Positions 27,570 through 32,574 of a DNA stretch of 64,000 nt are shown here, piece after piece. The notes under the pieces were generated by a model, which was not told the origin of the DNA, did not search any database, and worked only from the letters and a program-made list of their open reading frames with translations. A program made the translations under genes and the position numbers. How positions within the stretch are numbered: position 1 is the stretch's first letter; each line of letters opens with the position of its first letter. The DNA comes from Solidesulfovibrio sp. (GTDB lineage: Bacteria; Desulfobacterota; Desulfovibrionia; Desulfovibrionales; Desulfovibrionaceae): contig NZ_JARKOZ010000014.1 of assembly GCF_029978005.1 (NCBI RefSeq), positions 1-64,000 on the forward strand, read 5' to 3'.

Positions 27570-28397
27570 ATGACCCGCAAGATCGCCATCTACGGCAAGG
27601 GCGGCATCGGCAAGTCCACCACCACCCAGAACACGGCCGCCGCCATGGCCCACTTCCACAACAAGAAGGTCTTCATCCACGGCTGCGACCCCAAGGCCGA
27701 CTCCACCCGCCTCATCCTCGGCGGCAAGCCGCAGGAGACCCTGATGGACACCCTGCGCGACCTCGGCGCGGAAAAGGTCACCAACGACAAGGTCATCAAG
27801 CAGGGCTACATGGGCATCAACTGCGTGGAATCCGGCGGCCCCGAGCCCGGCGTCGGCTGCGCCGGCCGCGGCGTCATCACGGCCATCGACCTCATGGAGG
27901 CCAACGGGGCCTACACCGACGACCTGGACTTCGTCTTCTTCGACGTGCTCGGCGACGTGGTCTGCGGCGGCTTCGCCATGCCGATTCGCGACGGCAAGGC
28001 GCAGGAGGTCTACATCGTGGCCTCGGGCGAGATGATGGCCATCTACGCCGCCAACAACATCTGTAAGGGCCTGGTCAAATACGCCAAACAGTCCGGGGTG
28101 CGCCTGGGCGGGGTGATCTGCAACAGCCGCAAGGTCGACCGGGAGCGCGAGTTCCTGGAGGAGTTCACCTCCGCCATCGGCACCCAGATGATCCACTTCG
28201 TGCCGCGCGACAACATCGTGCAGAAGGCGGAATTCAACAAGAAGACCGTCACCGAATACGACCCCGCCGAGAACCAGGCCCAGGAATACAGCGCCCTGGC
28301 CGACAAGATCATCCACAACGAGATGTTCGTCATCCCCAAGCCGCTGACCATGGACGAACTGGAAGCCATGGTCGTCAAGTACGGCATCTCGGACTAA
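27570..28397 (+). CDS. anfH: Nitrogenase iron protein (dinitrogenase reductase)
   Basis: 275 residues. The P-loop GKGGIGKS is at 9-16. The two cysteines that bridge the 4Fe-4S cluster between subunits are in VGCAGRG and DVVCGGFA. The arginine after GCAG is the known ADP-ribosylation site in this family. It transfers electrons with ATP hydrolysis to the FeFe protein. The start ATG at 27570 has AAGGAG upstream. It heads the anfH-nifI1-nifI2-anfD-anfG-anfK operon; assignment to anf rather than nif rests on the downstream anfDGK genes. Confidence 0.93.
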
Positions 28398-28422
28398 CCG
28401 GCAGCCAAAGGAGAAGCCGCAT

Positions 28423-28740
28423 ATGAAGATGATCAAAGCCATCGTGCGCCCGGAGGCGGCCGAGACCGTGACCGAGGGGCTGGCCGACGCCGGGTTCTTC
28501 ACCATGACCAAGGTCAACGCCTACGGCCGGGGCAAGCAGAAAGGCATCACCATGGGCGACGTGCACTACGACGAACTGCCCAAGACCATGATCATGATGG
28601 TCGTGGAGGACGGCAGCGTCGAGGAAGTGCTCAAGATCATCAAGTACAAGGCCTACACCGGCAGTTTCGGCGACGGCAAGGTCTTCGTCCTGCCGGTGGA
28701 GCAGGTCTTCACGGTCCGCACCGGCCAGACGGGGCTCTAG
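28423..28740 (+). CDS. nifI1: NifI1, PII-like nitrogenase switch-off regulator
   Basis: 105 residues of PII family fold (MKMIKAIVRPEAAETV at the start; GDGKVFVLPVEQ near the end). The T-loop region (YGRGKQKGITMGDVHYDELPK) differs from GlnB and lacks the uridylylated tyrosine context. In methanogens and some bacteria, NifI1 and NifI2 form a complex that binds dinitrogenase and blocks its activity when ammonium is available, responding to 2-oxoglutarate and ATP. It lies 25 bp after anfH with a good ribosome site (AAAGGAG). Confidence 0.9.
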   Translation: MKMIKAIVRPEAAETVTEGLADAGFFTMTKVNAYGRGKQKGITMGDVHYDELPKTMIMMVVEDGSVEEVLKIIKYKAYTGSFGDGKVFVLPVEQVFTVRTGQTGL

Positions 28741-28750
28741 GAGGCGGCGC

Positions 28751-29122
28751 ATGAAAGAGATCATCGCCATCATCCGGCCGAAGAAAGTGGGGCCGACCAG
28801 GGACGCCCTGGAAAAACTGGGCTTCCCGAGCTTCATGGCCGTGCGCGTCCTCGGCCGGGGCCATCAGCGGGGCATCGCCGGCGAACTGGCCTGCGACATC
28901 CCAGAATTCCTCAAGGGGCAGGGGAAGTCCGGCGGCATGAAGTACATCCCCAAGCGCATGCTCTCCGTGGTCGTGCCGAGCGCCGACGCCGACGCCGTGG
29001 TGCGCGAGATCATCAAGGTCAACCAGACGGCGCAGATCGGCGACGGCAAGATCTTCGTCATGCCCGTGGACGGGGCCATGCGCCTGCGCACCGACGAAAC
29101 CGGCGACGCGGCGATATTGTAA
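28751..29122 (+). CDS. nifI2: NifI2, PII-like nitrogenase switch-off regulator
   Basis: 123 residues, PII fold with the longer T-loop typical of NifI2 ([19 protein letters not shown], then [13 protein letters not shown]). The C-terminal [18 protein letters not shown] is the conserved last strand. It begins 10 bp after the nifI1 stop, with TAGGAGG over the stop codon. Together with NifI1 it predicts reversible post-translational inhibition of the FeFe protein in response to fixed nitrogen. Confidence 0.9.
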
Positions 29123-30809: not shown

Positions 30810-30822
30810 CGAGGACCACGCC

Positions 30823-31173
30823 ATGGAAGAACTGCGCAAGGAACGCATCGAGCAGCTCGTCGACTACATCATGAAGAAGTGCCTGTGGCAGTTCCACTCC
30901 CGGGCCTGGGACAGGCGCGACCAGAACGAAAACATCCTGCTCAAGACGAAGCAGATCCTGTGCGACGAGAAGGTCGCCCTGGAGACGCCGGCCGACCGCT
31001 GCTACTGGGTGGACGCCGTGCTCCTGGCCGAGGCCTACCGCGAGAAGTACGCCTGGCTGGAGGGACTGCCCAAGGAAGAGGTCGCGGACATCATGAAGGG
31101 CGTGCACGAACGCATGGACTACCTGACCATCGACGGGTCGCTTAACCAGGAACTGACCGACCAGCACTACTAG
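30823..31173 (+). CDS. anfG: Iron-only nitrogenase delta subunit
   Basis: 116 residues, the small third subunit found only in alternative (V or Fe-only) dinitrogenases. Recognisable segments are [39 protein letters not shown] and [14 protein letters not shown]. It stabilises the hexamer with AnfD and AnfK. It lies 13 bp after anfD and 12 bp before anfK. Its presence rules out a molybdenum NifDK system. Confidence 0.95.
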
Positions 31174-31185
31174 AAGGAATCCCGT

Positions 31186-32574
31186 ATGACCTGCGAACTC
31201 ATGGAACGGTCCCGCGCCGGCATCATCAATCCCATCTTCACCTGCCAGCCGGCCGGGGCGCAGTTCGTCAGCATCGGCATCACGGACTGCATCGGCATCG
31301 TGCACGGCGGCCAGGGCTGCGTCATGTTCGTGCGCCTGGTCTTCTCCCAGCACTTCAAGGAGAGCTTCGAGCTGGCCTCGTCCTCGGTCCACGAGGACGG
31401 GGCGGTGTTCGGGGCCTGCGGCAGGGTGGAGCAGGCCGTGGACGTGCTTTTAATGCGCTACCCCCACGTCAAGGTGGTGCCCATCATCTCCACCTGCTCG
31501 ACCGAAGTCATCGGCGACGACATCGAGGGCGTGGTGACCAAGCTCAAGGGCGGCCTGCTCAAGGAGAAGTACCCCGGCCGCGAGGTGCACCTCATCCCCA
31601 TCCACACCCCGAGCTTCGTCGGCAGCATGGTCACGGGCTACGACGTGGCCATGCGCGACATCGTGGCCTACTTCGCCAAGAAGACCGAGCCCAGCGGCAA
31701 GCTCAACGTCATGACCGGCTGGGTCAACCCCGGCGACGTCACGGCCATCAAGCACCTGCTTACGGAAATGGACATCGAGGCCACGGTGCTCTTCGAGATC
31801 GAGGCCTTCGACTCGCCGCTCATGCCCTCGGGCAACCACGTCTCCCACGGCGAGACCACCATCGCCGACCTGGAAGGCACGGCCAACGCCGTGGGCACCA
31901 TCGCGCTGAGTCCCTACGAAGGGGGCAAGGCGGCCAAGTACCTGGAAAAGGAGTTCGACCTCCCGACCATCATCGGCCCTACGCCCATCGGCATCCGCAA
32001 CACGGACACGTTTTTGGCCAACTTAAGGAAGCTCACGGGCAAGCCCATCCCCGAGTCCCTGGTGCGCGAGCGCGGCATCGCCCTCGACGCGCTCACCGAC
32101 CTCGCCCACATGTTCTTCGCCGACAAGAAGGTGGCCATCTACGGCAACCCGGACCTGGTCATCGGCCTGGCGGAATTTTGCATCGACCTGGAAATGCACC
32201 CCACCGTCCTGCTTCTTGGCGACGACAATCCCAATTACGTCAAGGACCCCCGCATCAAGGCCCTGCAGGAGAACGTCGACTGGGACATGGAGATCGTGAC
32301 CAACGCCGACTTCTGGGAGCTCGAGGACCGCATCAAGAACAGGGGCCTCAAGCTCGACCTGATCCTCGGCCATTCCAAGGGGCGCTTCATCTCCATCGAC
32401 TACGACATCCCCATGCTGCGGGTGGGCTTCCCCACTTACGACCGGGCCGGCATGTACCGCCACCCCGTGGTCGGCTACGCCGGGGCCATTTGGCTGGCCG
32501 AGCAGATGGCCAACGTGCTGTTCACGGACATGGAGCACAAGCGCGTCCGGGAATGGAGCCTCAACATGTGGTAG
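31186..32574 (+). CDS. anfK: Iron-only nitrogenase FeFe protein beta subunit
   Basis: 462 residues, the short beta subunit typical of AnfK/VnfK. P-cluster cysteines are in FTCQPAGAQ, HGGQGCVMF and ISTCSTEVIGDD. FASSSVHEDGAVFGA-type sequence (ASSSVHEDGAVFGACGRVE) is close to Azotobacter AnfK. The C-terminal segment GGTIW/LAEQMAN-type (GAIWLAEQMANVLF) is also present. It forms the alpha2beta2delta2 FeFe protein with AnfD and AnfG. anfO and anfR, which follow anfK in Azotobacter, were not recognised downstream. No cofactor assembly genes (nifB, nifEN) occur in the window. Confidence 0.92.
   Translation: MTCELMERSRAGIINPIFTCQPAGAQFVSIGITDCIGIVHGGQGCVMFVRLVFSQHFKESFELASSSVHEDGAVFGACGRVEQAVDVLLMRYPHVKVVPIISTCSTEVIGDDIEGVVTKLKGGLLKEKYPGREVHLIPIHTPSFVGSMVTGYDVAMRDIVAYFAKKTEPSGKLNVMTGWVNPGDVTAIKHLLTEMDIEATVLFEIEAFDSPLMPSGNHVSHGETTIADLEGTANAVGTIALSPYEGGKAAKYLEKEFDLPTIIGPTPIGIRNTDTFLANLRKLTGKPIPESLVRERGIALDALTDLAHMFFADKKVAIYGNPDLVIGLAEFCIDLEMHPTVLLLGDDNPNYVKDPRIKALQENVDWDMEIVTNADFWELEDRIKNRGLKLDLILGHSKGRFISIDYDIPMLRVGFPTYDRAGMYRHPVVGYAGAIWLAEQMANVLFTDMEHKRVREWSLNMW

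Follow-up and report, generated by a model that had tools for sequence, protein, structure and literature searches.

Genes of the anf operon and type of the enzyme

The stretch of DNA analysed here comprises 64,000 nucleotides (positions 1 to 64,000 of contig NZ_JARKOZ010000014.1, assembly GCF_029978005.1; hereafter the window) of Solidesulfovibrio sp., and carries an operon for an iron-only (FeFe) nitrogenase in which a pair of PII-like regulatory genes of the NifI type is embedded. Six uninterrupted frames on the plus strand follow each other in the order anfH-nifI1-nifI2-anfD-anfG-anfK between positions 27570 and 32574 (Table 1). This order, and in particular the two PII-like genes between anfH and anfD, had been proposed in a first-pass annotation and is borne out by the open reading frames (ORFs) and the scores of the encoded proteins against protein families and the chains of structure 9p1x; the E-values exclude chance as the source of these matches. 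The start of anfH was set to 27570, which fits the family and the relatives, while the ORF list begins at an earlier ATG. The module extends beyond these genes, with an AnfA-type activator on the minus strand at its 5' side and two accessory genes 3' of anfK. The earlier annotation was thus correct for the six genes and overlooked both flanks, that is the divergent activator with its sigma-54 box and the two downstream genes.

Table 1 Features of the anf module in the window, with position, strand and the evidence for the assignment.
Feature	Position	Strand	Evidence
AnfA-type sigma-54 enhancer-binding activator, divergent	25161..26984	-	Pfam GAF, Sigma54_activat (AAA+), HTH_8 (Fis)
Sigma-54 (-24/-12) box TGGCATGCAATTGGCT	27491..27506	+	79 bases before anfH; 1 mismatch to consensus
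anfH, nitrogenase iron protein	27570..28397	+	TIGR01287 461.8 bits (cut-off 394.35)
nifI1, PII-like regulator	28423..28740	+	PF00543 90.6 bits; best solved match 9p1x chain H, E 3.7e-32
nifI2, PII-like regulator	28751..29122	+	PF00543 88.9 bits; best solved match 9p1x chain G, E 8.4e-28
Dispersed palindromic repeat (predicted hairpin) between nifI2 and anfD	29141..29177	+	Genome-wide repeat core; fold prediction
anfD, FeFe protein alpha chain	29241..30809	+	TIGR01861 (ANFD) 1063.7 bits (cut-off 873.8); within AnfD clade
anfG, delta subunit	30823..31173	+	TIGR02929 (anfG) 175 bits (cut-off 124.7)
anfK, FeFe protein beta chain	31186..32574	+	TIGR02931 (anfK) 910.5 bits (cut-off 853.85)
Gamma-glutamyl-cyclotransferase-like (AIG2) protein, candidate AnfR/Anf2	32815..33432	+	PF13772/PF06094; position
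PNPOx-fold flavoprotein-like protein, candidate Anf3	33464..33955	+	PF12900; position

To assign the enzyme type, the D, G, K and H proteins were scored with NCBIfam equivalog models against their curated cut-offs. AnfD, AnfG and AnfK exceed the cut-offs of the respective Anf models (Table 1), whereas the Vnf models remain below theirs (VNFD 682.1 bits, cut-off 823.1; vnfG 106.2, cut-off 141.7; vnfK 747.6, cut-off 873.95). The claim of an FeFe nitrogenase with an AnfG delta subunit is thereby supported. Among solved structures, AnfD of Azotobacter vinelandii is the closest (8boq, 1000.3 bits), compared to 618.9 bits for VnfD (5n6y). Cys257 and His423, the residues highlighted in the first-pass annotation, are present in AnfD, and the alignment with A. 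vinelandii AnfD is gap-free around both; we take these residues to be cofactor ligands. A grouping of AnfD with VnfD had been named beforehand as the outcome that would refute the assignment. In the AnfD tree (99 rows, quick method, with 8boq as AnfD and 5n6y as sole VnfD reference and long outgroup branches) the window protein falls inside AnfD, with a support of 99 for the branch that leads to VnfD and to the NifD rows of the same genome. The type of AnfK was assigned from the model scores, as the tree was made for AnfD. Furthermore, none of the contigs of the genome gave a VNFD match over cut-off in a profile search. The possibility that a vanadium nitrogenase (VnfDGK) was mistaken for an iron-only one, which the delta subunit common to both kinds and the substantial VNFD and vnfK scores might suggest, is therefore ruled out at the level of sequence by the equivalog scores, the genome search and the tree, and we regard it as the least probable of all alternatives considered here.

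Distribution and relationships of the embedded NifI pair

A profile search of the window's order identified AnfD over cut-off in 22 of 348 genomes, and nifI1 and nifI2 lie between anfH and anfD in every one of these 22 (window included). The same layout was found in 33 of 80 named AnfD loci, which are the best 80 of 188 confirmed stretches, nearest by AnfD, and hence not a random sample. NifI was not in view in 36 of these loci and lay elsewhere in six; three showed a partial NifI or NifI before anfH, and two had no anfH in view. Combining both sets gave 102 loci or, after removal of seven pairs with identical AnfD, 95 distinct ones (with the window row replacing its own entry). The layout is present in 48 of them, window included, and spans at least seven phyla. 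NifI was searched with the window's own NifI proteins as queries (E 1e-4), so that very divergent NifI could have escaped. According to the record titles, carriers include Clostridia, Chlorobi, two purple sulfur bacteria, Planctomycetes, a spirochaete and a Sumerlaeota bacterium; Paenibacillus, enterobacteria and purple non-sulfur bacteria are among those with anf loci of other layouts. When the layout was mapped as a label on the AnfD tree, ten changes were counted in comparison to a shuffled mean of 31.9 (two of the 95 loci, without anfH in view, were left unlabelled), which indicates that the layout is inherited in blocks and yet was gained or lost repeatedly.

The first-pass annotation had described the layout as best known from methanogens. 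A methanogen character is not supported by the layout, which is the rule in a bacterial order and common in Clostridia, Chlorobi and other bacteria. The NifI proteins of the window are nearest to the NifI of other bacterial anf operons, in a comparison in which the AnfD and NifI trees comprised bacterial anf sequences; the best 80 AnfD loci included no archaeal record. For annotation, NifI within anf operons should be considered normal in the window's order.

Within the genus, NifD over cut-off is present in 14 of 14 members and AnfD in four (the window's genome included). The locus of S. magneticus Maddingley MBC34 (ALAO01000189.1, L009), which belongs to the same genus, has an equal gene order with both NifI genes embedded. 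Identities amount to 94% for AnfH, 93% each for NifI1 and NifI2, 92% for AnfD, 84% for AnfG and 91% for AnfK, and the same two accessory genes follow downstream (51% and 70%). It differs in a longer anfG-anfK spacer, and its contig ends inside anfH, which leaves the promoter and anfA outside the view.

The genome contains a second NifI pair for comparison. The first-pass annotation had called for a genome search for a separate molybdenum (Mo) nitrogenase, and this search revealed a NifI-bearing nifH-I1-I2-D-K operon on contig C64 with NifD (672.7 bits) and NifK (430.9 bits) over cut-off. Its NifI pair occupies the equivalent place between nifH and nifD, but the operon is of the Mo type. Between this pair and the one in the anf operon, identity reaches only 50% for NifI1 and 42% for NifI2, and the two pairs belong to different clusters. 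Identities of the window pair to other anf-type proteins are at least 58% and at least 51%. The nifH of this Mo operon, in the last ~850 bases of the contig, is split over two frames on the minus strand (13672-14253 and 14034-14495), perhaps due to a draft error.

Among solved structures, the window NifI1 and NifI2 are closer to NifI-type chains than to GlnB/GlnK. Their best matches are two PII-type chains of 9p1x (NifI1 113.8 bits, next solved match 82.9; NifI2 100.3 bits, next 65.9). We infer that these two chains are NifI, as the entry also holds a nitrogenase alpha chain, which is Mo-like (577.5 bits to the NifD of this genome, 263.1 to its AnfD). A tree of concatenated NifI1 and NifI2 (64 rows, quick method) separated two sets, and a more careful tree of 62 rows, from which the long branches of 9p1x and of locus L062 were omitted, showed the same main split. 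The first set comprises 44 of the 48 anf-embedded pairs and two Paenibacillaceae pairs; the 9p1x pair, included in the larger tree, joins this anf-side set at its outer edge by a long branch. The second set contains nine Mo-operon pairs and unlinked Bacillota pairs (four; three in the careful tree), together with the embedded pairs of four anf operons from Bacillota, three of Pelosinus and one of Desulfosporosinus. The Mo-operon rows consist of the genome's own copy and eight of many Mo-type matches (L119-L126), all from the window's order. A single clade of all 48 anf-embedded pairs was rejected by the approximately unbiased test (p 5.85e-61), with long branches in play. In the two Paenibacillaceae (L031, L036) the anf-type NifI genes lie 4-6 kb before anfD and outside the anfH-anfD gap. 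In the four Pelosinus and Desulfosporosinus loci (L030, L039, L042, L086) NifI of the Mo-like cluster occupies the usual anf position, and these may be natural swaps of the regulator.

Pairwise identities of NifI and AnfD over 44 loci were correlated (Spearman 0.708; none of 2000 permutations was as high), as would be expected of a cassette that is inherited together, with plain kinship contributing to the signal. The NifI1 motifs GRGKQ, YDE and GDG are invariant in all 44 anf-type rows and present in the 9p1x NifI1 chain. At the C-terminus of NifI1, Arg-Thr occurs in 44 of 44 anf-type rows (RTG in 43, RTR in one), whereas all nine Mo-operon rows show SSG and the six Mo-like Bacillota rows SSG (five) or STG (one). 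By analogy to GlnB, the C-terminal Arg may be an ATP contact.

It is tempting to speculate, albeit with considerable reservation, that anaerobes with two nitrogenases carry separate, non-interchangeable NifI switches, one dedicated to AnfDGK across at least seven phyla and the other linked to the Mo enzyme of the window's order. If true, this would suggest that the two switches respond differently to nucleotides or 2-oxoglutarate and that each isoenzyme has its own ammonium threshold. Counting against such a dedicated lineage, the 9p1x pair, which accompanies a Mo-type alpha chain, falls on the anf side of the tree and has RTG. RTG is also found in the PII chain 2eg1 and may just be the older state. 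Neither the clade nor the motif therefore cleanly denotes 'iron-only'.

Flanking genes, cofactor supply and genome context

The sigma-54 box before anfH was scored against a -24/-12 consensus. In the 64 kb, six boxes of the same quality occur on both strands, the anfH one included. We scanned 23 chosen loci, one of which begins inside anfH, with GG and GC required to be exact. A box with no or one mismatch was found 72-161 bases before anfH in 14 of the 22 relatives with the start in view, and at exactly -79 in both genus members whose sequence reaches the start of anfH; the eight loci without a box belong to Bacillota (six) and Chlorobi (two).

The divergent activator scores below the cut-off of the NifA model (450.2 bits, cut-off 528.85), and its relatives are encoded beside other anf loci. 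Judging from the onset of the alignment with these relatives, its true start probably lies within the longest frame, perhaps at Met60. Two C-x4-C motifs directly precede its GAF domain. Among the 25 matching relatives, 19 carry a motif of this kind, a few of them (e.g. L069) having it in an unreliable upstream frame; for some of the six motif-less relatives the examined stretch stopped short or entered such a frame. In A. vinelandii AnfA and VnfA, substitutions of conserved N-terminal Cys residues are reported to abolish activation (PMC9542535).

Downstream of anfK, the two accessory genes recur in other genomes and are easily overlooked in annotation. Among the 70 named loci whose sequence continues for 2.3 kb or more past anfK, a PNPOx gene within this distance is at least 50% identical in 36, weaker in 21 and lacking in 13; the cyclotransferase-like gene is present in 20 and both genes at that level in 16. 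In Rhodopseudomonas (L076) anfK is followed by anfO (312.5 bits), a cyclotransferase-like and a PNPOx gene, and the tail of Rhodovulum (L083) looks, by reading, like the same order. For Rhodobacter capsulatus, anf1, anf2 and anf3 are described after anfHDGK, with anf1 and anf2 homologous to anfO and anfR (PMC6579470). Based on these positions, the two genes of the window may correspond to anfR/anf2 and anf3. The PNPOx protein matches Anf3 (6rk0) with 55 bits (E 7.1e-14), behind two chains that include 2fg9 of the nitroimidazole-resistance type (66.6 bits), and haem binding is consequently not implied. The window thus shares the structural genes, AnfA and genes in the anf2/anf3 position with the systems of R. 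capsulatus (anfHDGK-anf1-anf2-anf3) and A. vinelandii (anfHDGKOR), the comparison being made through L076 and L083. Unlike the window, these two loci have no embedded NifI, and in L076 anfO directly follows anfK, whereas in the window's genome it lies on another contig.

The repeat between nifI2 and anfD has the core CTCCGGCGGCCAARGGGC, of which a second window copy follows anfK (32705-32741). With at most one mismatch, 22 copies of the core were counted in the genome (control, 0), and it is also present in the nifI2-anfD gap of the three other anf-bearing genus members. The predicted hairpin has a fold z-score of only -1.98 and could separate the expression of anfH-nifI from that of anfDGK.

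The anf operon lies on contig C115 of a 4.8 Mb draft of 224 contigs with an estimated completeness of 96.3% and contamination of 4.14%. Profile searches of this contig detected no nifB, VNFD or anfO, apart from VNFD matches of anfD and anfK below cut-off. As the first-pass annotation had anticipated, the genome search points to cofactor supply from elsewhere. Contig C127 carries nifE (608.2 bits) and nifB (382.6 bits, cut-off 343.65), both over cut-off, with nifN between them just under it (304.2 bits, cut-off 326.8), and anfO is located on contig C45 (172 bits, cut-off 129.15). The FeFe-cofactor has been reported to require NifB-co and homocitrate and not the NifEN scaffold, and AnfO to exclude the FeMo-cofactor from the FeFe protein (PMC11938142). 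The nifV model reached at best 319.5 bits (cut-off 462.9); it matches in 14 of 14 control genomes, in none over cut-off, and does not separate related synthases.

Besides the operon on C64, a second Mo-type cluster was observed on contig C28 (26000-45000). Its nifD lies under cut-off (622 bits, cut-off 653.55), nifK and nifE over it, and nifX and nifN below, and no match to nifH or NifI was found within the stretch. It adjoins an AnfA-like activator (60% identical to the window AnfA), transporter-like genes (by reading) and a gene resembling anfO, which stays under the cut-off at 86.4 bits. A second NifD of this kind occurs in none of the 13 other genus members, and the GC content of the stretch is 62.5% compared to 68.1% in the window. 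The cluster may be a foreign island or a contaminant.

The label of a sulfate reducer, given in the first-pass annotation, fits the genome, as dsrA was detected over cut-off at two places (C177, 625 bits; C69, 605.5 bits). Each is accompanied by a second, weaker match. The two dsrA genes together with the second nif cluster hint at a mixed assembly.

Further upstream in the window, positions 22477-23577 encode a protein of the choloylglycine hydrolase family (Pfam CBAH over cut-off; the NCBIfam penicillin V amidase and bile salt hydrolase models under), beside a frame (23881-25128) that reads as beta-lactamase-like. Neither product had a match in the anf-locus stretches of four relatives, one of which ends inside anfH.

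Proposed regulation and its alternatives

From these results we conclude with good confidence that the window carries a complete iron-only structural operon with accessory genes, in a sulfate reducer that also has a Mo nitrogenase, and that activation by AnfA and sigma-54 and a switch-off by NifI upon ammonium are to be expected. Under starvation for fixed nitrogen and Mo, the divergent AnfA would activate the sigma-54 promoter before anfH, as suggested by the promoter and by work on AnfA elsewhere. NifB-co would be supplied by nifB on the other contig without need for the NifEN scaffold, and AnfO would guard against the wrong cofactor. Once ammonium returns and 2-oxoglutarate drops, a NifI1-NifI2 complex would bind AnfDGK and block docking of AnfH, to be released again by 2-oxoglutarate and MgATP, by analogy to NifI1,2 in Methanococcus. 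For methanogens, direct and 2-oxoglutarate-reversible binding of NifI to dinitrogenase has been reported, in which NifI1,2 obstructs the site of NifH on NifDK until 2-oxoglutarate, Mg and ATP lift the block (PMC9765008). Control of AnfDGK by NifI is inferred from homology, gene position and this methanogen work. The anf operons of Methanosarcinales are said to share the core nif organisation, vnf included, but their transcription is controlled by NrpR and NrpA (PMC9765008), in contrast to AnfA and sigma-54 in the window.

Several observations weigh against this interpretation. The solved complex 9p1x pairs NifI with a Mo-type alpha chain, the best nifV score lies under its cut-off, and the assembly is a draft with the contamination given above. 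The 36 of 80 named anf operons with no NifI in view indicate that the enzyme as such can do without NifI, and our literature search found no paper that shows NifI acting on AnfDGK.

The same 36 operons might suggest that the NifI pair is a mere passenger of operon inheritance and that AnfDGK is regulated by the Mo-operon pair or by neither. The conservation of the NifI motifs across distant loci and the retention of both genes in all 22 AnfD-carrying genomes of the order argue otherwise, and we consider this explanation unlikely. Slightly less plausible still is that the embedded pair mainly controls transcription via the GAF domain of AnfA rather than the enzyme. PII proteins of Rhodopseudomonas palustris are reported to regulate anf expression via AnfA, with potential involvement of the GAF domain (PMC12093980), and an AnfA-type activator adjoins the window operon; however, the pair is itself part of the structural operon and resembles NifI-type chains more closely than GlnB/GlnK, the nine Mo-operon pairs are likewise placed between nifH and nifD, and several loci with embedded NifI show no AnfA relative in view (such as L017, L018 and L021). 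ADP-ribosylation of AnfH by DraT/DraG in place of NifI is highly improbable and was rejected: the DraT model, which finds two matches each in the positive controls Rhodopseudomonas and Magnetospirillum, purple bacteria with anf operons without NifI in view (L076, L049), has no match in the 96.3% complete genome (DraG was not searched for).

We thus favour NifI-mediated switch-off of AnfDGK itself. A backup, Mo-free nitrogenase is already known, and the layout is found in many other oxygen-avoiding bacteria. Anf clusters of sulfate reducers have been described as anfHDKGOR in Pseudodesulfovibrio strain 9FUS, with a homologous cluster in P. hydrargyri (PMC11678503); the term nifI is absent from the main text of that paper. 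NifI1I2 in nif clusters of anaerobes, including some Desulfobacterota, has been published (PMC9391474), and the passages of PMC7341956 on Chlorobi anf genes do not place NifI inside a bacterial anf operon. No paper describing a NifI pair inside a bacterial anf operon was found in a literature of which subscription sources were covered in part, and we do not claim its absence from print. Possibly new here is the anf-linked NifI lineage, in which 44 of the 48 embedded pairs group apart from the Mo-operon pair of the same genome.

The locus offers a bacterial system for asking whether NifI acts on the FeFe protein, with the Mo-operon pair at hand for comparison. With two NifI pairs in one genome, it also suits the question of whether each nitrogenase has its own switch. 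As the iron-only nitrogenase is reported to convert CO2 to formate and methane as well (PMC12093980), its switch-off in anaerobes bears on the flow of both nitrogen and carbon in sediments.

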